In this document: piece by piece, positions 48,478 through 60,336 of the stretch
How the letters are laid out: every line of letters starts with the position of its first letter
Position numbering within the stretch: position 1 is the first letter of the stretch
Made by a program: the position numbers and the translations under genes
NCBI RefSeq assembly: GCF_031884435.1
Contig: NZ_CP134779.1
Span: 5,766,001-5,830,000, forward strand
Length of the DNA stretch: 64,000 nucleotides
Source: Bosea sp. 685
Lineage (GTDB): Bacteria > Pseudomonadota > Alphaproteobacteria > Rhizobiales > Beijerinckiaceae
Reading direction: 5' to 3'
Notes under the pieces: generated by a model
What the model was told of the DNA's origin: nothing
The model's input: the letters and a program-made list of their open reading frames with translations, nothing else
Database searches by the model: none

Positions 48478-49503
48478 TCAGAGCGTCCGGGTCACCTTGT
48501 TGAGATGCGGGGGATTGTCGGGATCGAGCCCGCGCGCGACCGCAAGCGCGGCAATGCCGCCATAGAAAGCCCGCGCCTGGACCAGCGGGGCGAGCGCGGG
48601 AGAGACGTCAGGCGGCATCGGCAGGGCCGTACCGACATCCGGGCCATGTCCGGCATAGGCGATCTCGGCGCCGAAACGCGCGAGCGCCGCCGCGACGGAC
48701 AAGGTGCTGTCGCGCCCCTCATCGGCCGGATCGAGCACGATCGCCGGGAAGCCGGGGCCGACCAGCGCCAAGGGCCCATGCAGCACTTCGGCGGCGCTGA
48801 AGGCCTCGGCGTGGATGCGGCAGGTCTCCTTGAACTTCAACGCCATTTCCTGCGCGATACCCAGGCCGAGGCCACGACCGATCACATAGAGGCTGGCGGC
48901 ATCTTTCAGCCCTGCGAACATGGGCGACCAGTCGCAACCGCCCGCCTCAGTGAGCAGTCGCGGCGCCTGTTCCAAGGCAGTGACGAGCGCCTCGTCCTGG
49001 CTCCAGGCCGCCGTGAGATGAAGGAAGGCGATGCAGGTGGCGAGGAAGCTCTTCGTCGCGGCGACGCTTTTCTCCGGCCCCGCCCGCAACGGAATCAGCA
49101 CATCGACCAGGCCGGCCAGCGGCGAAGCCTCGTCATTGATGAAGCCGACCACCAGCGCGCCGCCGCGCTTGGCAGCCTCGGTCAAGCGCAAGGCGTCGGG
49201 GCTGTGGCCGGATTGCGAGACGGCGATGAACAGCGCGCCGGAGAGATCGAGCTTGCCGCCATAGACTGAGGCGAGGCTCGGGCCGAGCGACGCCACCGGC
49301 AAGCCCAGCGTCCGCTCGATCAGGTATTTGCCATAGGTCGCGGCATGGTCCGACGAGCCGCGCGCGCAGCTGGCGACAAAGGCGGGCCTTTGCCGGCGCA
49401 AGCGCTCGCCAAGCTCTGCCATGACCGCCGCATTGCCCGTGATCTGCCTTTCGGCGACCCGTGCGGCCTCGGCGGCCTCGCTCGTCAGAAGCGCTTCAGG
49501 CAT
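48478..49503 (-). CDS. SIS-domain sugar isomerase/deaminase (NagB-II/AgaS/FrlB superfamily)
   Basis: The 341-residue protein has two SIS domains like the isomerase half of GlmS: ASCARGSSDHAATYGKYLIE, AVSQSGHSPDALRLTEAAKR, KSVAATKSFLATCIAF, RIHAEAFSAAEVLHGPLALV and end PPHLNKVTRTL. The end resembles NagB-II deaminases. Family reactions on sugar 6-phosphates include removal of ammonia from glucosamine-6-P and deglycation of fructosamine-6-P. It overlaps the PfkB gene by 8 bases and is last in the ABC operon, so it probably acts on the product of that kinase. Confidence 0.9.
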   Translation of the reverse strand: MPEALLTSEAAEAARVAERQITGNAAVMAELGERLRRQRPAFVASCARGSSDHAATYGKYLIERTLGLPVASLGPSLASVYGGKLDLSGALFIAVSQSGHSPDALRLTEAAKRGGALVVGFINDEASPLAGLVDVLIPLRAGPEKSVAATKSFLATCIAFLHLTAAWSQDEALVTALEQAPRLLTEAGGCDWSPMFAGLKDAASLYVIGRGLGLGIAQEMALKFKETCRIHAEAFSAAEVLHGPLALVGPGFPAIVLDPADEGRDSTLSVAAALARFGAEIAYAGHGPDVGTALPMPPDVSPALAPLVQARAFYGGIAALAVARGLDPDNPPHLNKVTRTL

Positions 49504-50443
49504 CGATGCGACCATGCTCCTCGAGCAGCGTCTTGCTGATATCGGCGACCCGGCCGCGAGCGAGCCGCACGCCGGCGCCGCCCACCCCCTGGACGGACAG
49601 CGTCCCGCACGCGATCCCCTCGGCAAGGGCCTGGCTTGGCGGATGGCCCGCAATCCAGGCCGCGATGAAGCCAGCGTTGAAGGCATCGCCCGCGCCGGTG
49701 GTATCGAGAACCGGGCCGCCCTGTGGAGCGGGCAGGTTCAAACTCTGCTCGCGCTGGAACAGTTTCGCACCGGCCGCACCATCCTTGATGACGACGACGG
49801 GGAAATGACGGGCGAGCCGGCGGCCCGCCTGGTCGAGATCCTCGCAGCCGGCAATCGCCCGGGCCTCGGCGGCATTGGGCAGGAAGATATCGGTGCCGGT
49901 CGAGCGCAGGACGAGATCGGGATCGTGGATCAAGGCGTCGTCCCAACTCGGATCGAGGGAGACGGTGAGGCCTGCGAGCTTGGCGAGCGAGACCAGTTCC
50001 GGGCTCTCGGCGAGCGTCGCGAATTCGGCGATGTGCAGATGGCGCGCCTCGGCATCCGCCAGGGCAGCTTCGAGGGTGGTTGGCCGCGCCTTGCCGGCCC
50101 GGCGGGACAGGAAGGCGCGTTCGCCTGCTTGCACCATCACCACGGTGGGTTGCGGCCCGGCGTCGGGCGCCCGCTCGAGCCAGCGCAGATCGACGCCGCT
50201 CTGCTGCAAAGCCGGTGCGATGACCTCCGACAAGGGATCGGTTCCAATGCGCGCGAGCAGAGCCGCCCGCTCGCCCAGCGACGCCAGATGGGCCGCCGTG
50301 ATGAAGCCGCCGCCGCCGGGCACGACCGAAACCTCCTTGGCGAAGCGCTCCTCGCCGAGCCTGGGCAGCGCCTCCAATCCCCGGAAGACGAGATCGCAAT
50401 AGAGTCGGCCGATGCTGAGGACGAGATTGCGTCCGTCTTTCAT
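49496..50443 (-). CDS. PfkB-family carbohydrate kinase
   Basis: The 315-residue protein has the ribokinase pattern: N-terminal VLSIGRLYCDLVFRGL, the GG dipeptide region VVPGGGGFITAAHLASLG, DPSWDD, and the ATP/anion-hole motif LDTTGAGDAFNAGF with the catalytic Asp. The family phosphorylates sugars such as ribose, fructose, KDG and fructosamines (FrlD). It sits between the MalK-type ATPase gene (overlap 4 bases) and the SIS gene (overlap 8), so phosphorylation of the imported sugar is likely. Confidence 0.92.
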   Translation of the reverse strand: MKDGRNLVLSIGRLYCDLVFRGLEALPRLGEERFAKEVSVVPGGGGFITAAHLASLGERAALLARIGTDPLSEVIAPALQQSGVDLRWLERAPDAGPQPTVVMVQAGERAFLSRRAGKARPTTLEAALADAEARHLHIAEFATLAESPELVSLAKLAGLTVSLDPSWDDALIHDPDLVLRSTGTDIFLPNAAEARAIAGCEDLDQAGRRLARHFPVVVIKDGAAGAKLFQREQSLNLPAPQGGPVLDTTGAGDAFNAGFIAAWIAGHPPSQALAEGIACGTLSVQGVGGAGVRLARGRVADISKTLLEEHGRIDA

Positions 50444-51516
50444 AGCGCGCGCTCGCTTGCGGCATCGAACAGCGTCAAGGCGGCCACGGGTGCGCCGAGC
50501 CGCACGGCCGCGCCGACAACCGGGGGCGACTTGGCGGGAGCCGAGGCCAGGATCAGCCCGCCACCGAACTCGACATGGACGAAAGTCTCGGAGCCGAGCG
50601 GCTCGATCACCGCGACAGTGCCGGTCAGCACGAGATCGGCCGGCTCGTCGCCCGCCAGAACGCGCAATTGCTGCGGCCTGACGCCGACAAGGACATCCGT
50701 TGGCACCGTGCCGACGGTGGCGGGCAAAACGACGGGCTTCTCGCCCAGAGCAAGCGTCGCGATGCCGGCCTCAGTCGCCACGCGGCCGGGCAGGACGTTC
50801 ATGGTCGGAGAGCCGATGAAGCGGGCGGTGAACACATCGGCGGGCTTCTCATAGAGCTCCATCGGCGCGCCGACCTGGAGGATGCGGCCGTCGCGCATCA
50901 CGACGATGCGATCGGCGAGCGTCATTGCCTCGACCTGGTCATGCGTGACGAAGACGATGGTGGTGCCGAGCCGCTGATGCAGGCGCTTGATCTCCAGCCG
51001 CATCTGCGCGCGCAATTGCGCGTCGAGATTGGAGAGCGGCTCGTCGAAGAGGAAGACCGTGGGGTCGCGCACCATGGCGCGGCCGATGGCGACGCGCTGG
51101 CGCTGGCCGCCGGACAAGGCCGAGGGCCTGCGCTCCAACAACGGCTCCAGGCCGAGAATGCCGGCGACCTGCTCGACCCGCTTGCGCTTCTCGGCCTTGT
51201 CGAGCTTGGCGGTATGGAGGCCGAAGCCGATATTCTCGGCAACGCTCATATGCGGGTAGATCGCATAGTTCTGGAACACCATCGCGATGTTGCGATCCTT
51301 CGGCTCCAGCCGGTTCACGACCCTGCCGCCGATGCTGATCTGCCCGCCGTCGATGTCCTCAAGCCCGGCGATCATGCGCAAGGTCGTCGACTTGCCGCAG
51401 CCGGAGGGGCCGACGAAGACGACGAACTCGCCATCGGCGACGGTGAGGTCGATGCCGTGAACGACCTGCGTCGCGCCATAGCGCTTGACCAGCCCTTGAA
51501 GTTCGATACCCGCCAT
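50440..51516 (-). CDS. Sugar ABC transporter ATP-binding protein, UgpC/MalK type
   Basis: The 358-residue protein has Walker A GPSGCGKST, Q-loop FQNYAIYPHMSV, signature LSGGQRQRVAIGRAM, Walker B VFLFDEPLSNLD and VTHDQVEAM, followed by an OB-fold regulatory domain (about 240-358). It energises the two carbohydrate permeases upstream in the operon. It overlaps the lyase gene (TGATG) and the kinase gene (4 bases). Confidence 0.95.
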   Translation of the reverse strand: MAGIELQGLVKRYGATQVVHGIDLTVADGEFVVFVGPSGCGKSTTLRMIAGLEDIDGGQISIGGRVVNRLEPKDRNIAMVFQNYAIYPHMSVAENIGFGLHTAKLDKAEKRKRVEQVAGILGLEPLLERRPSALSGGQRQRVAIGRAMVRDPTVFLFDEPLSNLDAQLRAQMRLEIKRLHQRLGTTIVFVTHDQVEAMTLADRIVVMRDGRILQVGAPMELYEKPADVFTARFIGSPTMNVLPGRVATEAGIATLALGEKPVVLPATVGTVPTDVLVGVRPQQLRVLAGDEPADLVLTGTVAVIEPLGSETFVHVEFGGGLILASAPAKSPPVVGAAVRLGAPVAALTLFDAASERAL

Positions 51517-53033
51517 TACGTCGTTTCCATCAGGGCGGCGAAGGCCGCGTCGAGTTCCTGCCGCGCGGCTTGTTCGCGCGCGGCGATATCGGCCGCAGCG
51601 CCATCAGCCGCATCGAGTTTGGCGCGATAGCCCGCCAGCGCCTGGCCCAGCGCCTGCGGTCCCGGCCCGCCGAAGCGCTCGCGCACCGCGACGAAGTTTT
51701 CCGGTGAGACCACGCCCGCGAAATCGCCTGCCGTCAGCGCCGGCTCACGGCCGGTGTGATGGCGGAAGGCCTCGAGGAAGGGGGCATAGCCATCGCGCGG
51801 CAGATCGCCGTCGAGCGCGACGACGGCGCGCGCGACGCTGGCTGCAATCTCATGCGCGGCGCGGAAGGAGAGCCCCTCGCGGCGCACCAGCGTATCGGCG
51901 AGTTCGGTGATGGTGATGCAGGAGCGGCGGATGTTCTCGGCGACACGGCGGCCGTCGACGCTCATCGATGGCAGCAGCGCGGCGAGCAGATCGAGCACGC
52001 GCTCGCCGGTCGCGAAGGCCTGGTAGCCGGCCTCGTTGGTCTCAGCCTCCGCGTCGTTCATGTCGGTGAAGGGGGTGTTGTGGACGACGTCCCTGACCAG
52101 CCGGGCGCGCGCCATCGCCTGCGAAGAGAGATGGCGCAGATGTTCGATCGGCACCGGATTGCGCTTCTGCGGCATGATCGAGGAAATCTGCACGAAGGCA
52201 TTGGGCACGTAGAGCTGGCCGACCTCGAAGGCGGTCCAGACCTGGAGATCCTGGATCAACCGGCCGAGATGCAGGAAGGTGAGTTCGACCGCGCTATAGG
52301 TCGCGGTGACGTAGTCGATCGCGGCGATGCAGCCATAGGAGTTTTCCAGCGGCGCGGCGAAACCCAGGAGATGAGCAATGTGGGCCCGGTCGAGCGGGAA
52401 TCCGGAGGTGGTGATCGCGGCCGCACCCATCGGCGAAAGGTCGAGCAATGCGCGCGCCTGCATCAATCGCTCATGGTCGCGCAGCATCACCTCGATGGCC
52501 GCCGCCAGATAATGCCCGAAGGTCGTCGGCTGGGCCGGCTGGCCATGGGTGTAGGCGACGATCAGCGTCGCCTTCTCGCGCTCGGCCAGGGCCAGCGTCG
52601 CGGTGATCAGCGCGCGCAGCCTGGCCGCAAGCCGGTCGAGGCGCGGCTTCAGCGCCAGCTTGAACAAGGTATGGTCGATGTCGTTGCGCGAGCGGCCGGT
52701 GTGCAGGCGGCCGGTGTCGTCGGGGCTGAGCCGCTTGCGCAACTCCGCTTCGATCAGGAAGAAGAAATCCTCGACCTCGCCGGTATAGCTCAACGCGGCC
52801 GGATCGATCTCCGCATCGATCTCACCCAGCGCCCTAGCGATCCGGCCGGCGGTCGCGCGCGGCAAGATGCCGGTCTCGGCGAGCATGACGAGATGAGCGC
52901 GGTCGATGGCGCGGAAAGCCTCGACATGATGCGTCTTGGCACCGTCGAAGAGCGGGCGCAGCACCGTTTCCTTGTAGACGGGATCGGGGAAGACGGAGGT
53001 GTCGCTCAGGCGCGGATCTGCATGTCTGCTCAT
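51516..53033 (-). CDS. Argininosuccinate-lyase-family C-N lyase in a sugar ABC operon
   Basis: The 505-residue protein belongs to the aspartase/fumarase superfamily: GRLHTGRSRNDIDHTLFKL, AYTHGQPAQPTTFGHYL (catalytic His region) and the signature SSIMPQKRNP with the catalytic Ser loop. It differs from housekeeping ArgH: THGQPAQP replaces THLQRAQP, and the region NSYGCIAAIDYV lacks the SDRD motif of ArgH. It is also longer by about 40 residues. Ethylenediamine-disuccinate lyase is a known relative with a non-arginine role. Position between the permease and ATPase genes (4 base gap and 1 base overlap) suggests it splits a C-N bond to fumarate and an amine or sugar amine. True substrate unknown. 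Confidence 0.88.
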   Translation of the reverse strand: MSRHADPRLSDTSVFPDPVYKETVLRPLFDGAKTHHVEAFRAIDRAHLVMLAETGILPRATAGRIARALGEIDAEIDPAALSYTGEVEDFFFLIEAELRKRLSPDDTGRLHTGRSRNDIDHTLFKLALKPRLDRLAARLRALITATLALAEREKATLIVAYTHGQPAQPTTFGHYLAAAIEVMLRDHERLMQARALLDLSPMGAAAITTSGFPLDRAHIAHLLGFAAPLENSYGCIAAIDYVTATYSAVELTFLHLGRLIQDLQVWTAFEVGQLYVPNAFVQISSIMPQKRNPVPIEHLRHLSSQAMARARLVRDVVHNTPFTDMNDAEAETNEAGYQAFATGERVLDLLAALLPSMSVDGRRVAENIRRSCITITELADTLVRREGLSFRAAHEIAASVARAVVALDGDLPRDGYAPFLEAFRHHTGREPALTAGDFAGVVSPENFVAVRERFGGPGPQALGQALAGYRAKLDAADGAAADIAAREQAARQELDAAFAALMETT

Positions 53034-53037
53034 CGGA

Positions 53038-53880
53038 TCAACCCTTCAGGCCGGCCATCACCACGCCGCGCACGATGTAGCGCTGCAGCACGAGGAAGAC
53101 CGTCAGCGTCGGCAGCGTCGCGAGCGCCGCGCCCGTCATGATCAGCTCCCACTGGATCTGCGACTCCACGGCGAAGCTCGAGAGACCGACGGGCAGCGTG
53201 TAGAGTTCCTTGCTGGTGGTCACGATCAGCGGCCAGATGAAGGCCGTCCAGTTGCTCAGGAAGGTGAAGATCGCGAGCGCCGAGAGCGCCGGCGTCACCA
53301 GCGGCATGGCGATGCGCCAGAAGATCGAAAATTCGTTGAGCCCGTCGATGCGGGCGGCTTCGAGGAAGTCGTCGGGCACCGTCTCGAAGAACTGCTTCAT
53401 CAGGAAGGTGCCGAAGGCCGTCATCATGCCCGGGAACATGATGCCCCAATAGGTGTCGAGCCAGCCGAAATTCCGGGCCATGACATACCAGGGAATGACC
53501 AGCATCTCGGTCGGGATCATCAGGGTCGAGAGGATCGCCAGGAAGACGATGTAGCGCCCGCGGAACTGGAATTTCGCCAGGGTGTAGCCGACCAGGCTGT
53601 CGAAGAAGACGTTCGACAGCGTCACCGCCGTGGCGATGCCCAGCGAATTGCCGAACCAGCGCAGGAAGCGGCCGTCGGACAGCACCGTGACATAGTTGTC
53701 GAGCGTCGGATGGGCCGGCACCAATCTCAGATCATAGACCTCGGAGGCGTCCTTCAGCGAGGTCGAGAACATGAAGAGCAGCGGCGTGATCATCACCAGG
53801 CCGCCCGCGAGCAGCAGCAGCCAGATGGCGACGCGGCCGGGTTGGAAACGGTTGGGCATGGTAAGGGACAACGCGGGCAT
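53038..53880 (-). CDS. Carbohydrate ABC transporter permease, MalG type
   Basis: The 280-residue protein has six membrane helices beginning VAIWLLLLAGGLVMITPLLF, then FSTSLKDASEVYDLRLVPAH, and the EAA loop DDFLEAARIDGLNEFSIFWR, MPLVTPALSALAIF. It forms the channel with the MalF-type gene, which ends in the TAATG overlap at its start. The start at 53880 is fixed by this overlap; longer open frames upstream are shadows. Confidence 0.94.
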   Translation of the reverse strand: MPALSLTMPNRFQPGRVAIWLLLLAGGLVMITPLLFMFSTSLKDASEVYDLRLVPAHPTLDNYVTVLSDGRFLRWFGNSLGIATAVTLSNVFFDSLVGYTLAKFQFRGRYIVFLAILSTLMIPTEMLVIPWYVMARNFGWLDTYWGIMFPGMMTAFGTFLMKQFFETVPDDFLEAARIDGLNEFSIFWRIAMPLVTPALSALAIFTFLSNWTAFIWPLIVTTSKELYTLPVGLSSFAVESQIQWELIMTGAALATLPTLTVFLVLQRYIVRGVVMAGLKG

Positions 53881-54806
53881 TAGCGGTCCCTCAGCAGGCG
53901 CAATTGCAGGAAGGAGACGGCGAGCAGGACGAGGAAGAGCACCACCGTCTGCGCCGCCGCATAGCCCATCTCGAAGGACGAGAAGGCGGTCTGGTAGATC
54001 ATCAGCACCAGCGGCTTGGTGGCGTTCAAAGGCCCGCCGGGATCGCCGCTCGTCATGTTGTAGACCTGGTCGAAGATGCGCAGGAAGCCGATCGAGGAGA
54101 ACACGACGAGGAAGATGATCGTCGGCTTCAACAGGGGAATCGTGATCCGGCGCAGGATCGTCAGATTGGAGACGCCGTCGATGCGGGCCGCCTCGTAATA
54201 GGTGTTGGGGATGGCGCGCAGGCCGGCGAGGAAGATCACCACCTGGAAGCCTAAGCCCGCCCAGATCGCCGGCGCCAGCACCGAGGGCAGAGCCTGGCTG
54301 GTCGAACGCAGGAAGGGCTGCTGCGGCAGGCCGAAGCTTGAGAGCAGATCGTTGATCATGCCGATCGGCACCGGCTGGTAGAACCAGCGCCAGACCCAGG
54401 CCATGGCCGCCGCCGTCGTCAGGAAGGGCAGGAAATAGAGCGCCCGGATGAAGCCATGCAGAAAGCGGACGCGGTCGAGGTGATAGGCGATGGTGAAGGC
54501 CAGGATCAGGCTCACCGGCGTGCCGATGGCGAGATAGAGCACGGTATTGCGGAACACCTGCCAGAACACGACATCGGCCCAGAGCCGCTGGAAGTTCGCC
54601 AATCCGACGAAGCCGGGCTTGGAGAACAGGTTCCAATTGGTCGTCGACAGATAGAACGCCTCGATCGTCGGGTAGAAGCGGATCAGCGCGTAGAACAGGA
54701 TCGGGACGGCCAGGAAGGCCCAGGCCCAGACGACCTGCTTCCGGCGCAGGGAGAGCCCGCCCCAAAAGCGGCCGCCGGAGGTTTCCTGTTGGATTGGCAT
54801 GCTCAT
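53880..54806 (-). CDS. Carbohydrate ABC transporter permease, MalF type
   Basis: The 308-residue protein starts MSMPIQQETS with a cytosolic lead, then WAWAFLAVPILFYALIRFYP as the first helix, a periplasmic loop, and the EAA motif NTYYEAARIDGVSNLTILRR. It overlaps the MalG-type gene. A hairpin of the REP family lies between it and the binding-protein gene upstream. Confidence 0.94.
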   Translation of the reverse strand: MSMPIQQETSGGRFWGGLSLRRKQVVWAWAFLAVPILFYALIRFYPTIEAFYLSTTNWNLFSKPGFVGLANFQRLWADVVFWQVFRNTVLYLAIGTPVSLILAFTIAYHLDRVRFLHGFIRALYFLPFLTTAAAMAWVWRWFYQPVPIGMINDLLSSFGLPQQPFLRSTSQALPSVLAPAIWAGLGFQVVIFLAGLRAIPNTYYEAARIDGVSNLTILRRITIPLLKPTIIFLVVFSSIGFLRIFDQVYNMTSGDPGGPLNATKPLVLMIYQTAFSSFEMGYAAAQTVVLFLVLLAVSFLQLRLLRDR

Positions 54807-54845
54807 CGCGACGAGATCTGAACTCTAGTTTTCGGTCGCCCCGCC

Positions 54846-54954
54846 ACGTCATTCCGGGTGGAGCGAAGCGGAGGCCCGGAATCCATCGGAGGGTTCCGGA
54901 GCTCTAGGATGGATTCCGGATCGGCGCGGCTTCGCCGCTTGTCCGGAATGACGA
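54846..54954. repeat. REP-like hairpin element between binding-protein and permease genes
   Basis: ACGTCATTCCGGG opens and TCCGGAATGACG closes the element; inside, CCCGGAATCCATC and GATGGATTCCGG pair as a second hairpin. It is a close copy of the element at 16275. Confidence 0.7.
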
Positions 54955-54977
54955 TGCGGTTCCGAGGAAACTCGCCC

Positions 54978-56237
54978 CTACTTCTTGTAGAACTTGTCGA
55001 GGATCGCCTGCTCGGCCTTGGCCGCATCAGTGAGCGAGGCCTTGGCGTCCTGGTTCTGGATCAGCACGCGGTTGATCATGTCGAGCGAGACCTGGCGCTG
55101 GCCCATCTCGTCGACGAAGACCGTGGCGTAGGAATAATTCAGCGCCTTGAGGAAGGGCCCGTAGATCGGGTGGTTCAGGTTCTTCTCGGTCTCGGCCGCG
55201 GCCTTGCGGGCCGGCAGTTCGCCGACAGTCTCGAGCCAGAGCTGCATCGCCTCGGGCGAGGTGACGAAGGCCATGAACTTCTTGGCGGCTTCAAGCTTCT
55301 CGCCGGTGGGCTTGGCGGTGATGGCGTTGACCCAGTAGCTGGCGAAGTTCGCCTTCTTGCCGTCGGCGCCCGCCGGCAGTTCGGCGACGCCCCACTCGAA
55401 GGCCTTGATCGCCCCGAACCCGCCGAGCCGGAACGAGCCGTCGATGGTCATTGCGGCGCGGCCGGCGCGGAAGGCGGCCTGTCCTTCATCCATGAAGCCG
55501 ACCTGGCCGACCTTGTGGACGCGCTGGAGATCGGCATACCAGTTCAGGGACTTGGCGCCGGCCTCGCTGTCATAGGTGACCTTCCTATTGTCATCGCTAT
55601 AGGGCGCGCCGCCATTCTGGCGCAGCAGCGTCTCGCGCCACCAATGATAGTCCTGCCCGGGGAAATCGAGCGTGATGCCAGCCGAGAGCATGTTGCCGGC
55701 GGCGTCGCGCTTGGTCGTCTTCTTGGCCATGTCGAGGAGTTCGTCGATCGTCGCCGGCGGCTTGGTCGGATCGAGACCAGCCTCCTGGAACAGCTTCTTG
55801 TTGTAGAATAACGCCAGCGAGCGCACCGCGGTCGGCAGGCCGTAATACTCGCCATCGCGCTTCATCGCGGAGACGATCGGATAGAATTCCTTCTCGATCA
55901 TCGCCGGCGGAAAGGCGTCGCGCGGCAGCGGCTGGATGAATTTGGCGGCGACGAAATTGTCGAGCCAGCCATAGAACAGCTGCACCACATCCGGCCCCTG
56001 ACCAGCAGGGACGGCAGCCGCGATCTTGGTCTGGTAGTCGGCATAGGGGAAGGTCGTGTGCTTGACCTTGATATTGGGATTGGCAGCCTCGAACCGCTTG
56101 ATCAGCTCGTTCATCGCCTTGATGCGAGCGTCGAAGACATATTGCCAGTATTCGATCTCGACGGTCTGAGCCGCCGCGCCGGTGACGGCACCGAACGAAA
56201 CCAGCAGACCCAACAGCATTCCTCGAAAGCCGCGCAT
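54978..56237 (-). CDS. Extracellular sugar-binding protein (ABC, UgpB/MalE family)
   Basis: The 419-residue precursor has a Sec signal (MRGFRGMLLGLLVSFGAVTG, cleavage after AAA). The mature part shows VEIEYWQYVFDARIKAMNEL, YADYQTKIAAAVPAGQGPD (family 1 signature region) and AAMTIDGSFRLGGFG. It binds a carbohydrate in the periplasm. ATG 56237 follows GGAGAGG; a longer frame is not used. First gene of the operon, divergent from the ROK regulator. Confidence 0.93.
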   Translation of the reverse strand: MRGFRGMLLGLLVSFGAVTGAAAQTVEIEYWQYVFDARIKAMNELIKRFEAANPNIKVKHTTFPYADYQTKIAAAVPAGQGPDVVQLFYGWLDNFVAAKFIQPLPRDAFPPAMIEKEFYPIVSAMKRDGEYYGLPTAVRSLALFYNKKLFQEAGLDPTKPPATIDELLDMAKKTTKRDAAGNMLSAGITLDFPGQDYHWWRETLLRQNGGAPYSDDNRKVTYDSEAGAKSLNWYADLQRVHKVGQVGFMDEGQAAFRAGRAAMTIDGSFRLGGFGAIKAFEWGVAELPAGADGKKANFASYWVNAITAKPTGEKLEAAKKFMAFVTSPEAMQLWLETVGELPARKAAAETEKNLNHPIYGPFLKALNYSYATVFVDEMGQRQVSLDMINRVLIQNQDAKASLTDAAKAEQAILDKFYKK

Positions 56238-56338
56238 GATCCTCTCCCCTGTCGTGACGACGCCTGTGCCCTTGCCCTCAAATTCGGCATTCAAGACGCG
56301 CAACCGTCATGCTCGCTCCAGCCCCACCATCCTGTCAA

Positions 56339-56369
56339 TCGATTAATTCACTTGAGTTGGATTAATCGA
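56339..56369. promoter_or_regulatory. Candidate ROK operator in the divergent region
   Basis: TCGATTAAT (56339-56347) and ATTAATCGA (56361-56369) are exact complements with a 13-base gap that itself has a weak dyad (TTCACTTGAG). It lies between the binding-protein start (56237) and the ROK start (56408), the AT-richest part of the gap. Confidence 0.6.
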
Positions 56370-56407
56370 AAGCGCAGCCTGTCGATCTCAACAAGCACTG
56401 GCCCATC

Positions 56408-57655
56408 ATGCCTCACCGCCGCTCTCCCCCGTCCCGCAGCGTCGCCGTCGGCACCAATCCCGAGCGAACGCGCAGCCATAACCGCCGCGTGGTGCTGGAA
56501 ACGGTGCGCCAGCACGGCCGGCTCGGCCGCTCCGACATCGCCGCCCTGACGCGGCTGACGGCGCAGGCCGTCTCGAACATCGTCGCGGAACTGGTCGGCG
56601 AAGGGTTCCTGATCGAGCAGGGGCGCCGGCGCACGGCGCGCGGCCAGCCGCCGATGGAGCTCGCGGTCAATGCCGATGGCGGCATGACCGCCGGCATGGA
56701 GATCGCAGCCGACCATATCACCACCGTCCTGGTCGATCTCGCCGGTGCAGTCCGGGCGCAGCGCATCGTGCCATTAGGCGATTCCGCGCTCGAGGCCGTG
56801 CAGGCGCTCGCCGCTGCCGAACTCGCCCTTGCCCGCACCGGGGCGGGATTGCCGCGCCGCCTGCTCGGCTGCGGGGTGGTGATGCCGGGCCCCTTCGAGA
56901 TCGAGGGGATGAACTCTGTCGGCTCATCGCCGCTGCCGGGCTGGGCCGGGCACGATGCCGGCCGGCTCCTGTCATTGGCACTGCAGACACCCGTCACGAT
57001 CGAGAACGACGCGACGGCAGCTGCCGTCGGCGAGCATCTGCACGGGCTGGGGCGGAATCTGCGGCATTTCTGCCTGGTCTATTTCGGCGCGGGCCTGGGG
57101 CTCGGCACCATCATCGGCGGGCAGCCCTATCGCGGCGCCTTCGGCAATGCCGGCGAGATCGGCCATATCCCGGTCGTCCAGAACGGGCTCGCCTGCGCCT
57201 GCGGCGGCCAGGGCTGCCTCGAACGCTATGCCTCGACGCATGCGTTGAGCGAGGCCCTGCGCGCCGCCGGGATTGCGCATGCCGGCCCCGACGAGGTCGC
57301 GCAGCTGCATCTGGCCGGGCACCCCGCCGTGCTGGGCTGGATCACCGAAGCGGCCCGGCTGCTCGCGCCGATGCTGGTGATGCTGGAAAACCTGTTCGAC
57401 CCGGAGACCATCATCCTGGGTGGCGGCTTGCCCGATGGCGTCATCGACGCCTTGATCGAGGCGATGTCGCCTTTGGCCGTCTCGGTCTCGAACCGGTCGG
57501 GCCGCAGCGTGCCGCGCGTGCAGCGCGGCGCGACCGGCAGGCTCACCGCGGCGCTCGGCGCAGCCGCCTTGCCGCTGCTCGACACGATGACGCCGAAACT
57601 CGACCGCACCGTTCTGCATGAGCAGGACGAGACCATCACGGCCGAAGCCGAATAA
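56408..57655 (+). CDS. ROK-family transcriptional regulator
   Basis: The 415-residue protein has an N-terminal MarR-like HTH (about residues 20-75: RRVVLETVRQHGRLGRSDIA, TAQAVSNIVAELVGEG) and a ROK sugar-kinase-like domain with GNAGEIGHIPV and the zinc site CACGGQGCLERYAS. ROK repressors such as NagC and XylR sense sugars or sugar phosphates. The binding-protein operon is divergent, with a dyad between them, so regulation of that operon is likely. An amino-sugar effector would fit. Confidence 0.93.
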   Translation: MPHRRSPPSRSVAVGTNPERTRSHNRRVVLETVRQHGRLGRSDIAALTRLTAQAVSNIVAELVGEGFLIEQGRRRTARGQPPMELAVNADGGMTAGMEIAADHITTVLVDLAGAVRAQRIVPLGDSALEAVQALAAAELALARTGAGLPRRLLGCGVVMPGPFEIEGMNSVGSSPLPGWAGHDAGRLLSLALQTPVTIENDATAAAVGEHLHGLGRNLRHFCLVYFGAGLGLGTIIGGQPYRGAFGNAGEIGHIPVVQNGLACACGGQGCLERYASTHALSEALRAAGIAHAGPDEVAQLHLAGHPAVLGWITEAARLLAPMLVMLENLFDPETIILGGGLPDGVIDALIEAMSPLAVSVSNRSGRSVPRVQRGATGRLTAALGAAALPLLDTMTPKLDRTVLHEQDETITAEAE

Positions 57656-57773: not shown

Positions 57774-59054
57774 TCAGCCGGCGGTCGCTCTCGCGAAGAA
57801 ATCGACCGGCCCCATCTGGCCGCCCTTCAGGACGATATCGAGATCGTCCAGACGAGGGTCATCGCTATGTGTCCGGCAGAGCGGCGCGCCCGAAGCCAGC
57901 GGACCGCGATAGGACAACCCCCAGATGTCGAGCGATTTGACGGCAAGGCTCGATGTGTCGCCACCGGCCACGACGAGCCGGGACAGGCGCGCTTGCGCAA
58001 TGATGTCGCGCAACAGCAGGCCGGTTGCCGCCGCGACGCCGCCGGCATTCTCCGGAGCCTGCGACGGACGCTCGGTGATCAACATGACATGGCCCTCCGC
58101 CAATCGCCGGAGCGCCTCCTGCCGCAGCGCCTCGGCATAGGCTGCATCATCGAGAAGCCTGCGCGGCTCGATCGCCAGCTTGGCAAAGCCCGTCGCCACC
58201 TCGACCTGCCCCCGGGTCACGGGCGAAAGGCTGCCAACCAGCGCCAGCACGGGACCATCGCGCCGCAGCGGAACAGTCCTCGCTACGGCTTCCTCCTGGA
58301 CACCCCACAGGCCCGCCAGCGCCTGGGCGACAGAGCTCGGGCCGACGGCAAGCATCGGCTGCGCCTGCGCCCGCTGCGCGATCAGCTTGCCGATGACCGG
58401 GAGATCGGAAGCGCGGGCGACATCGAGCAGGACTGCGCCAGGCTCGGTTGCGAGACAGGCGGCGAGTGCAGCCTCCGCCCCGTCCTCCCAATTGCGATAG
58501 TCGAGCAGGGCGACCCGCTCCAACCCCTGCGCCGTGAGATGCCGGCGCAGATCCGCCTCCGCCATCGGCGTGACCGGGTGGACGCTCATCGTCGGATGGC
58601 GGTCGATCCTGTGGACCACGCCACCGATGCCGGCCGCGGCGAAGAGGTTTCCGAACAGGCAGTAGCGGCCGAGATTGGGCTGGCCGCCGAGGATCGGCAG
58701 GAACGGACTCTGAAAATAGGGGCGCAGCGCCTTCACCGCGGCGCCGATGCTGCCGATAAGTGGCGCGCTGTCGAAGGTCGAGCAGCATTTATAGTGCAGC
58801 AACGCGACGCCCTGCCCGGCGAAGAAGCGGCCGGCCTCGTCGAGCTCGGCTGCCATCGCGACCGGTTCCATCGAGCGGGTCGCCCCGGCTATGCCGATGG
58901 CGTCGAGCGGACCTGCAGCGCTCAGTTGCTCCGGCGTCGGAATCCGCAGGAACAGCAGCGCACGCCGCCCCTGCTCCGCCAGCGCCGACAAGGTGTCGGT
59001 CGCGCCGGTGAAATCGTCGCCATACCAGCCATAGAGCGGCGATGGGTTTGCCAT
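57774..59054 (-). CDS. Four-carbon acid sugar kinase (DUF1537), OiaK-like
   Basis: The 426-residue protein has the family's N-terminal YGDDFTGATDTLSALAEQG (substrate domain) and the C-terminal nucleotide domain with VVAGGDTSSLAVKSLDIWGL and IVLKGGQMGPVDFF. These kinases phosphorylate acid sugars such as erythronate, threonate and 3-oxo-isoapionate. The start at 59054 was chosen because homologues begin just before the YGDDFTG motif; the longer frame to 59321 is shadow. It follows the RuBisCO-like gene by 7 bases. Pairing a DUF1537 kinase with a RuBisCO-like protein fits the known OiaK-OiaX branch, and no PdxA2 dehydrogenase (threonate route) is present. Confidence 0.88.
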   Translation of the reverse strand: MANPSPLYGWYGDDFTGATDTLSALAEQGRRALLFLRIPTPEQLSAAGPLDAIGIAGATRSMEPVAMAAELDEAGRFFAGQGVALLHYKCCSTFDSAPLIGSIGAAVKALRPYFQSPFLPILGGQPNLGRYCLFGNLFAAAGIGGVVHRIDRHPTMSVHPVTPMAEADLRRHLTAQGLERVALLDYRNWEDGAEAALAACLATEPGAVLLDVARASDLPVIGKLIAQRAQAQPMLAVGPSSVAQALAGLWGVQEEAVARTVPLRRDGPVLALVGSLSPVTRGQVEVATGFAKLAIEPRRLLDDAAYAEALRQEALRRLAEGHVMLITERPSQAPENAGGVAAATGLLLRDIIAQARLSRLVVAGGDTSSLAVKSLDIWGLSYRGPLASGAPLCRTHSDDPRLDDLDIVLKGGQMGPVDFFARATAG

Positions 59055-59061
59055 CAGGGCC

Positions 59062-60336
59062 TCAACCAGCAAGCTTGCCGAAGAAATCGAGCGCCTGCCG
59101 CAATTCGCCCTGCGTCCTGGCAGCGTCCTCCAGCGAAATGCCGGCCGCCACGGCGTCCCAGGCCTGCCGGATGCTGACCACGCCGGCCGTCGGCCCGCCG
59201 GGATGGGCGAGGATGCCGCCGCCGGCCATGAAGAGCAGGTCGGAATGGCCGATCGCATCCCAGGTCGGCTGGGCCGTGCCGGCCCATTGGCCCGAAGAGA
59301 AAGCCGGCATGACGCGGTCATCGATGCCCGCGCTCAACGGCGTCACGCAATCCCTGGCGGAGGAGACGACCTCCTCGTCTTCCTGCGCGAATTTGCCCTG
59401 CAAGCCGTGGACATGCATGTGATCGACGCCGGCGAGCCGCCAGAGCGTCTGATAAGCCTGGAAGGAGATACCGAGCATGGGATGGCGCGAGAGCGCGCCA
59501 TAGCCGTTGCGATGGCCGTGCACGGCGAGATCGGTCGAGCGGCGCAGCGTCTCCATGGCAGAGAACCCGCACCAGTTCAGGCTCGTCATGATGCAGGTAC
59601 CGCCCTCGCGCGCCACCAGATCGGCATGGCGGCGCATCGCGTCGGTCTCGTCGGTGATATTGAAGGCGACCATCACCGCCTTGCCGGTGCGATCCTGATG
59701 GCGGCGCACGGCGGCCATCACCGCCGGCACGCGTTGCGCCAGCGGCGCATGGACGGGATCGGCCGAGATCTCGTCATCCTTGATGAAATCAAGCCCCGCC
59801 TCGCAGAGCTTGGCAACGAGCGCCGCCGTCTCCTCCACGCTCAGCCCGACATTGGGCTTGATGATCGAGCCGACCAGCGGACCCTGCGGAACACCCGTCA
59901 GCCGGCGCGTCCCAGCGATGCCCTGGCTCGGCAGCGGGAAGCGAGCCCGGAAGGAGGCGGGCAGCGTGATCGTGTCGAGCCTGAGGCCCGTGACCTCGCC
60001 GAGATCATAGAGATTGCCCGCGACGATCGCAGCCAGGGTCGCCAGATTGGCGCCGACATTGTCGACCGGAAACGAGATCGCCACGCGGGCCCGCCGCCAG
60101 GGGCCGGAGACGCCTTTGCGGGCGAGCCAGGCATTAGGCAGGCTCGGCGTGGCGATCGTTTCAAGCTCCTCGACCTTGATGACGACGGCGCTCGCCCGCT
60201 CGCGCAATTCGTCGGTCTCGCCGGCGACGCGGGTGAAGGTGCCACTCGACTGCTCGCCCGCCATCACCTGCGCCACCTTCATCGGATCGAGCGGTGTCTC
60301 GATCAGATAGGTCGCCTCGAAGCGTTCGCTGGTCAT
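59062..60336 (-). CDS. RuBisCO-like protein, OiaX-like decarboxylase candidate
   Basis: The 424-residue protein is a form IV RuBisCO large-chain relative. It keeps the reaction Lys in GSIIKPNVG (Lys160), the carbamate Lys and metal ligands in FIKDDE (Lys186, Asp188, Glu189), HGHRNG (273-278), the loop 6 Lys in GLQGKF (Lys315), and phosphate-binding SSGQ and GGGILAHPGG. KPN replaces KPK of true RuBisCO. So metal-activated enolate chemistry on a phosphorylated sugar acid is likely, but CO2 fixation is not. Adjacent DUF1537 kinase points to 3-oxo-isoapionate-4-phosphate decarboxylase; substrate is inferred. A weak hairpin separates it from the VOC gene. Confidence 0.9.
   Translation of the reverse strand: MTSERFEATYLIETPLDPMKVAQVMAGEQSSGTFTRVAGETDELRERASAVVIKVEELETIATPSLPNAWLARKGVSGPWRRARVAISFPVDNVGANLATLAAIVAGNLYDLGEVTGLRLDTITLPASFRARFPLPSQGIAGTRRLTGVPQGPLVGSIIKPNVGLSVEETAALVAKLCEAGLDFIKDDEISADPVHAPLAQRVPAVMAAVRRHQDRTGKAVMVAFNITDETDAMRRHADLVAREGGTCIMTSLNWCGFSAMETLRRSTDLAVHGHRNGYGALSRHPMLGISFQAYQTLWRLAGVDHMHVHGLQGKFAQEDEEVVSSARDCVTPLSAGIDDRVMPAFSSGQWAGTAQPTWDAIGHSDLLFMAGGGILAHPGGPTAGVVSIRQAWDAVAAGISLEDAARTQGELRQALDFFGKLAG

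Follow-up and report, generated by a model that had tools for sequence, protein, structure and literature searches.

The window analysed here is a 64,000-nucleotide stretch of the Bosea sp. 685 genome (NZ_CP134779.1, positions 5,766,001 to 5,830,000), which carries between positions 48478 and 57655 a sugar importer operon with an embedded gene of the argininosuccinate lyase family. The operon is transcribed from the minus strand in the order SBP-PermF-PermG-lyase-ABC-PfkB-SIS. It begins with a periplasmic solute-binding protein (SBP, 54978..56303, SBP_bac_8 and SBP_bac_1 matches; translation may in fact begin at the ATG at 56237), followed by two permeases of an ATP-binding cassette (ABC) importer, PermF of the MalF/UgpA type (53880..54806, BPD_transp_1, 53.5 bits) and PermG of the MalG/UgpE type (53038..53883, BPD_transp_1, 76.7 bits). 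Next come a class I lyase of the argininosuccinate lyase family, predicted to release fumarate from a glucosamine conjugate (51516..53033, Lyase_1 136.8 bits and ASL_C2 36.3 bits), and a MalK/UgpC-type importer ATPase (50440..51516), which scores 477.7 bits with the UgpC subfamily model, above the cut-off of 432. The last two genes encode a PfkB/ribokinase-family protein, a predicted glucosamine kinase (49496..50443) that passes the gathering score of Pfam PfkB PF00294 with 133.9 bits and reaches no NCBIfam model cut-off, and a SIS protein of the NagB-II type, a predicted glucosamine-6-phosphate deaminase (48478..49515, Pfam SIS 93.2 bits), whose likely start is the ATG at 49515 within a mechanical open reading frame (ORF) extending to 49686. 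A ROK-family transcriptional regulator is encoded divergently on the plus strand (56408..57655, ROK 149.8 bits and a weak MarR-type match). Since the SBP resembles UgpB with 93.5 bits, far below the cut-off of 411, its ligand cannot be read from this match. PermF/PermG and ABC/PfkB (ATGA) overlap by 4 bases, lyase/ABC by 1 base (TAATG), the SIS gene starts about 20 bases within PfkB, and 4 bases separate PermG from the lyase gene. The ABC importer, lyase, PfkB, SIS and ROK genes thus lie where the initial annotation had placed them, and the junction coordinates confirm the translational overlaps it described around the lyase.

Relatives of the lyase occur at 227 loci in genome contigs, and we analysed the best-matching 80 (68-96% identity, several from one genus), the best matches in named genomes being from Bosea at 96% identity. 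We scored presence by tblastn with a few query proteins, a procedure that would overlook distant replacements, and the per-gene counts exclude loci without enough flank. The SBP, PermF and PermG genes lie beside the lyase gene at all 77 loci with enough flank, the ABC gene at 80 of 80, and the ROK regulator gene at 76 of 77. The kinase is of the PfkB type at 65 of 72 loci and a ROK kinase at three, and the deaminase gene is of the SIS type at 16 of 72 and a classical NagB at two. Annotated plasmid loci agree in having the regulator, the transporter, the lyase and a kinase; three other annotated plasmid loci hold lyase and transporter without a kinase or a PIG-L gene (see below). We conclude that the operon is genuine and conserved and that the association of its genes is not due to chance. 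As to the wider co-occurrence of the gene set considered in the initial annotation, lyase, transporter and kinase are widely found together, but the SIS gene accompanies them at only 16 of 72 loci. Two of the loci deserve mention in their own right. In Terrarubrum (L096:7234-16131), an operon without a kinase is followed by genes for an NrtR-type regulator, nadA, L-aspartate oxidase and nadC. A contig labelled Bacillus subtilis SK6B4 (L070) has an alphaproteobacterial operon, 56-81% identical to the window genes and resembling that of L081; the label is probably a contamination or mislabelling.

The lyase meets the definition of a class I lyase, with the Lyase_1 domain and the catalytic segments SRND, TH and SSxMPQK, and residues S115-D118, H163, S284, S285 and M287-N292 are invariant across 26 lyase rows. 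Its best solved relative is the argininosuccinate lyase 2e9f (193 bits); another is 6g3d (151 bits), whose entry says argininosuccinate lyase and which we take to be EDDS lyase; family and catalytic segments are common to these enzymes and the window lyase. PF00206 matches at nine places in the 6.8-Mb Bosea genome. With 596, 503 and 360 bits, three of the other genes (L002, L003 and L005) exceed the cut-off of 279.5 of the argH model TIGR00838, and the window lyase falls just short of it with 278.9 bits. The ArgH segment that follows the signature loop, KGLPLTYSKDMQEDKE in L002, is replaced by HNTPFTDMNDAEAETNE in the window lyase; the replaced ArgH residues presumably contact arginine. Its gene partners also differ from those of argininosuccinate lyase, and in our tree the lyase group does not include the ArgH rows. 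Judged by its sequence, the window lyase is not the ArgH of this genome, and with three other genes passing the argH model it is not the only argH candidate either; we therefore set the ArgH reading aside. Because the catalytic segments of the superfamily are kept and the ArgH segment is replaced, the lyase probably frees fumarate from a substrate other than argininosuccinate, and the co-product is very probably fumarate. A study of a related lyase describes class I lyases as typically releasing fumarate by cleavage of O- or N-succino groups (PMC9706529). The view taken in the initial annotation, that a member of this family in a dedicated catabolic operon frees fumarate and that kinase and SIS enzyme act after it, is supported as probable.

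The sugar end of the pathway is indicated by the deaminase genes. By far the best family of the SIS protein is NagB-II (NF046059, 331 bits, below the cut-off of 430), as compared with GlmS (153 bits) and FrlB (NF008481, 24 bits, likewise below a cut-off of 430). Six NagB-II genes adjoining nagA in relatives themselves score only 265-348 bits with NF046059. The best solved relatives are 7kqa (FecR in the depositors' naming), 3hba, 8eol (named glucosamine-6-phosphate deaminase) and 3fj1. We surveyed 51 genomes, the Bosea genome and those of 50 of the 80 loci, and all of them match NagB-II with 258 bits or more. Where the operon itself has the SIS gene (17 of the 51), a second NagB-II of at least 200 bits is missing in nine genomes and present in eight. 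Classical nagB exceeds the curated cut-off in two of the 51, both copies lying inside lyase operons (L042 and L049; the L049 match runs over one TGA and has an open frame of 244 amino acids), and nagB above the cut-off also adjoins the operon at plasmid loci L089 and L091. Classical NagB, which belongs to a Pfam family other than SIS, thus stands at the lyase locus in four genera. In a tree of 21 SIS proteins, the operon copies are not set apart from housekeeping NagB-II as a single clade; the starred branches require three or more label changes, and two long-branch rows are of unsure place. In a sample of 61 genomes from the genus, NagB-II of at least 300 bits is present in 21 of the 22 with the clade-A lyase and in none of the 39 without it. 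One of the 21, G071, has lyase and NagB-II on different contigs. The single exception is G105, whose lyase gene lies close to the beginning of a contig and is oriented so that the operon would extend past the contig end. We examined ten stretches with NagB-II genes that are not part of the lyase operon; of seven adjacent genes tested, six pass the nagA cut-off, and these six come from relatives with no deaminase in the operon. In Bosea sp. 685, NagB-II outside the operon adjoins a CoA-transferase-like gene, and a divergent nagA-like/nagB-like pair is present, both below cut-off.

Since glucosamine-6-phosphate deaminases have been recruited repeatedly, and in part from non-homologous families, glucosamine-6-phosphate is very likely the pathway intermediate. 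We thus predict that the SIS protein is a glucosamine-6-phosphate deaminase, and the sugar end product is, with good confidence, glucosamine or its 6-phosphate. In this the operon resembles the Nag pathway (NagB-II or NagB with NagA and NagK), which also ends in glucosamine-6-phosphate deamination and whose NagB-II genes beside nagA in relatives are homologous to the window SIS gene. The window operon differs in lacking NagA, in having a predicted fumarate-releasing lyase and, in most relatives, in its PIG-L partner. Of the two sugar chemistries offered in the initial annotation, the glucosamine-derivative option stands, given the NagB-II-type SIS protein and the NagB genes at the loci, and the analogy with fructosamine (Frl/Fra) operons is not supported, on the same evidence.

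A large PIG-L gene encoding about 800 amino acids is present at 57 of 76 loci; it adjoins the ROK regulator gene at most loci outside Bosea, and the 56 large PIG-L frames listed have an HPDDE site. Among 70 fully flanked loci, 54 have PIG-L and the other 16 SIS, none having both or neither; the count includes PIG-L at L049, which lies in another orientation, and leaves out L033 and L065 (SIS, no PIG-L) for lack of flank. Roseomonas (L097) and L155 likewise have SIS and no PIG-L that we could see. PIG-L coexists with classical NagB in Loktanella, Skermanella and Devosia, and NagB occurs without PIG-L in Paroceanicella; it is thus the SIS gene that the exclusion concerns. A survey of 289 genomes of the class, Bosea sp. 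685 included, added ten lyase loci (54-59% identity), several of them on stretches ending at contig edges: PIG-L is present at seven (L147, L148, L150-L153 and L156), and none was seen on the stretches of L149, L154 and L155. At L147 and L151, both from one genus, Opp/Dpp/Nik-type binding-protein and permease genes flank the lyase and PIG-L genes, and a sugar transporter was not detected. The PIG-L (LmbE-like) enzymes that were known in 2014 act on N-acylglucosamine cores such as GlcNAc-malate (BshB) and bacillithiol conjugates (Bca), and Bca presumably lets glucosaminyl-malate be recycled (PMC4101496). The bacillithiol enzymes BshB and Bca and the mycothiol enzymes MshB and Mca are of the family of the lyase's partner in most relatives, but they serve synthesis or detoxification inside the producer, whereas here the setting is an importer with catabolic enzymes and, in the window, no PIG-L. 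A DMT/EamA-type transporter gene directly follows PIG-L at 32 of 56 loci (within L025-L088) and has no match in the SIS-type loci L009-L024; we considered it as a cysteine exporter, and its function is not inferable. Cysteine dioxygenase was rejected as a conserved partner, being annotated once (L095) and having a homologue at none of the 80 loci.

From the observed gene content, families, conservation and co-occurrence we infer each reaction of a scheme in which the operon scavenges an external glucosamine conjugate, with glucosaminyl-L-malate or bacillithiol as the best-fitting candidate, and to this scheme as a whole we give an even chance. The CUT1-type ABC importer would take up the conjugate and, in most relatives though not in Bosea sp. 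685, PIG-L would free the glucosamine nitrogen of its acetyl or cysteinyl group. The class I lyase would then eliminate glucosamine from the 2-substituted succinate, yielding fumarate and glucosamine, the PfkB kinase (a ROK kinase in some lineages) would produce glucosamine-6-phosphate, and SIS (NagB-II) or NagB would convert this to fructose-6-phosphate and ammonia, with the ROK regulator responding to the sugar. If glucosaminyl-malate is the substrate, the lyase would cleave the C-O bond of a malyl glycoside.

Bacillithiol is a thiol that many other bacteria use instead of glutathione, and in glucosaminyl-malate the malate is O-linked at C2 and has the L configuration that the superfamily uses. 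The N-acyl hydrolysis steps known for this compound class are, moreover, the work of PIG-L enzymes. To our knowledge, glucosaminyl-L-malate is the one abundant natural compound that joins glucosamine to a 2-substituted succinate; for that reason an importer, PIG-L, lyase, kinase and deaminase together read as its breakdown, and we know of no earlier catabolic route for bacillithiol-class thiols. We rate alpha-D-glucosaminyl-L-malate as the substrate, free or as bacillithiol (Cys-GlcN-malate), a little short of an even bet. An O-linked malate substrate was not among the options in the initial annotation, which had no view of the PIG-L genes at other loci. We looked for bshC in 28 lyase-carrying alphaproteobacterial genomes from the 51 surveyed and in 14 controls, and found it in none of the 28 and in three controls (Bacillus subtilis, Thermus composti and Deinobacterium chartae). 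A bacillithiol-type substrate would thus be foreign to these alphaproteobacteria. Bacillus reportedly contains bacillithiol at millimolar levels (PMC4360819).

Lyases of Deinococcus are 33-37% identical to the window lyase and have in common with it the pattern HNxPFxDxN (HNTPFTDMND in the window), which is present in 16 of 17 alphaproteobacterial rows, 10 of 12 Deinococcota rows and none of 11 outgroup rows. Four of seven annotated Deinococcus loci combine a ROK gene, lyase, SBP, two permeases, a kinase and at least one PIG-L, and three of these four encode both a long and a short PIG-L. The four short proteins tested match MshB (145-161 bits), Mca (106-124), BshB2 (76-85) and then BshB1, all below the cut-offs (at best 160.6 bits to MshB, cut-off 224.35). 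The long PIG-L of D. ficus appears by eye to start with a signal-like peptide, and that annotated in D. wulumuqiensis begins almost at the PIG-L domain. With the long-branch rows oL103 and oStrep dropped, the alphaproteobacterial and Deinococcus lyases form a clade with 94/84 support that is not starred; we do not regard them as firmly supported as one clade. A bacillithiol/glucosaminyl-malate-consuming pathway common to Alphaproteobacteria and Deinococcus, in which PIG-L de-acylation would be followed by beta-elimination (C-O) by a new lyase, with no glycosidase, is a tentative proposal that we would sooner doubt than rely on.

Several observations weigh against the glucosaminyl-malate scheme. 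None of the sequence features tested separates a C-O from a C-N leaving group. No recognised kinase is present at four of 72 loci (L025, L037, L047 and L063), and at L149 and L154 no PIG-L, SIS or recognised kinase was seen. Bosea sp. 685 has a sister lyase-transporter operon (L101:6131-12222, contig C2 near 3991631) with a 65% identical lyase and a LacI-type regulator, and no kinase, PIG-L or deaminase was seen in this or the other sister operons (L092 and L093), so that lyase and transporter can exist without the remaining genes. The sister lyase occurs alone in eight of the 61 genus genomes, none of which has NagB-II at E 1e-55. The strict exclusion of PIG-L and SIS is without a firm explanation. 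Bosea sp. 685 has no large PIG-L and would have to receive its substrate already free of the acyl group or process it in another way; its single PIG-L, a 303-amino-acid frame in a neighbourhood that by ORF reading is gallate-type, was rejected as the missing partner for its shortness and its cluster. Three large PIG-L proteins tested score no more than 21-58 bits with the Mca, MshB and BshB models, the libraries searched hold no characterised enzyme close to the large PIG-L, and some PIG-L proteins do other chemistry (5cgz is named 4-oxalomesaconate hydratase). The NagB-II score of the SIS protein is, as said, below the cut-off. Three of the seven Deinococcus loci have lyase, binding protein and permeases only, with no PIG-L or kinase, and the joint clade of alphaproteobacterial and Deinococcus lyases is not recovered with oL103 and oStrep included.

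The main rival has an N-linked substrate, N-(1,2-dicarboxyethyl)-D-glucosamine, which fructose and aspartate would form as their Heyns product or which would arise as fumarate-succinated glucosamine, from which the lyase would release fumarate and glucosamine by C-N elimination ahead of kinase and deaminase. Argininosuccinate lyase, which is the best solved relative, likewise cleaves a C-N bond, and the kinase, NagB-II/NagB and fumarate would all be explained; this analogue would pass every test made except that of PIG-L. PIG-L (54 of 70 loci, and Deinococcus) would however be idle unless the substrate were also N-acylated, and such compounds are minor in nature. We consider this rival unlikely.

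In another reading the lyase would cut the C-S bond of a sugar thiol that has been succinated, either S-(2-succino)-bacillithiol or S-(2-succino)-mycothiol: a PIG-L amidase would free S-succinocysteine, the lyase would produce cysteine and fumarate, and kinase and deaminase would use the glucosamine. A class I lyase for S-(2-succino) compounds, 2SL (PMC9706529), and PIG-L amidases of thiol conjugates (PMC4101496) have been described, and the DMT/EamA-type gene after PIG-L would suit this reading. The yxe-type operons with 2SL offer a likeness in that their catabolic cluster includes a class I lyase taking fumarate from a 2-substituted succinate, and in having been predicted by the same reasoning from gene neighbours and inverse distribution; they differ in the C-S bond and the N-acetylcysteine product, and kinase and amino-sugar deaminase are not part of the 2SL pathway as given there (PMC9706529). 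The malate or inositol moiety would be left unexplained, the SIS-type loci have no PIG-L to make S-succinocysteine, and the absence of a cysteine dioxygenase homologue at the 80 loci also counts against this reading, which we hold to be improbable.

Still less probable is the earlier version with fructosyl-aspartate, an Amadori compound, in which the lyase would free 1-amino-1-deoxyfructose, PfkB would phosphorylate it and the SIS protein would be a deglycase. Frl/Fra operons do combine an importer, a PfkB-type kinase and a SIS enzyme, and there are weak matches to FrlB and to fructoselysine 6-kinase (42.6 bits). Against this, the window SIS protein is of the NagB-II and not the FrlB type, classical NagB at four loci would not serve an Amadori amine, and PIG-L is given no job; the Amadori reading was set aside for the SIS family and the NagB genes. 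An ordinary amino-sugar or chito-oligosaccharide operon with a displaced argininosuccinate lyase for arginine synthesis or salvage is hardly credible: the argH score just 0.6 bit under the cut-off and the database names of the lyase relatives (argininosuccinate lyase) would fit it, but the three genes passing the argH cut-off, the replaced segment, the ArgH rows outside the lyase group and the fixed position of the lyase inside the importer operon do not.

Homologues of the lyase family outside the operon were noted as well. Those on plasmids of Haladaptatus, Natribaculum, Geminicoccaceae, Cereibacter, Streptomyces and two Cupriavidus belong to other clades and served as outgroup; no PIG-L is annotated near these plasmid lyases, the gene tables being incomplete and one locus (L104) having no annotation. 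The Cereibacter plasmid (L106:1222-9552) carries an asparaginase, an amino-acid ABC importer, an MmgE/PrpD protein, a lyase of the family and a FrlB-like SIS protein (FrlB 79.4 bits, cut-off 430), and this cluster, rather than the window operon, could fit the fructosyl-aspartate idea. A further lyase of the Bosea genome (L103:7696-9252, contig C2 near 5293304) has an N-terminus that is signal-peptide-like by eye, which suggests a periplasmic enzyme. Beside the ROK gene of the window (57774-60336, minus strand) lie genes for an OiaK-like kinase (306.7 bits) and an OiaX-like RuBisCO-like protein (444.9 bits; cut-offs 700); L009, L010 and L095 have homologues of both in the neighbourhood of their lyase operon.

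In the open-licence PMC literature, the part of the literature we covered, we found no description of the gene set or of a bacillithiol catabolic route. The families are known, but the set of partners and the likely substrate are apparently undescribed in that literature. If our proposal is true, many genes labelled 'argininosuccinate lyase' bear the wrong name and are part of a catabolic pathway that occurs in two phyla, and eliminating the aglycone as fumarate would be an unusual way of breaking a glycosidic bond. Even with an N-linked substrate, the operon would define a pathway for glucosamine conjugates.

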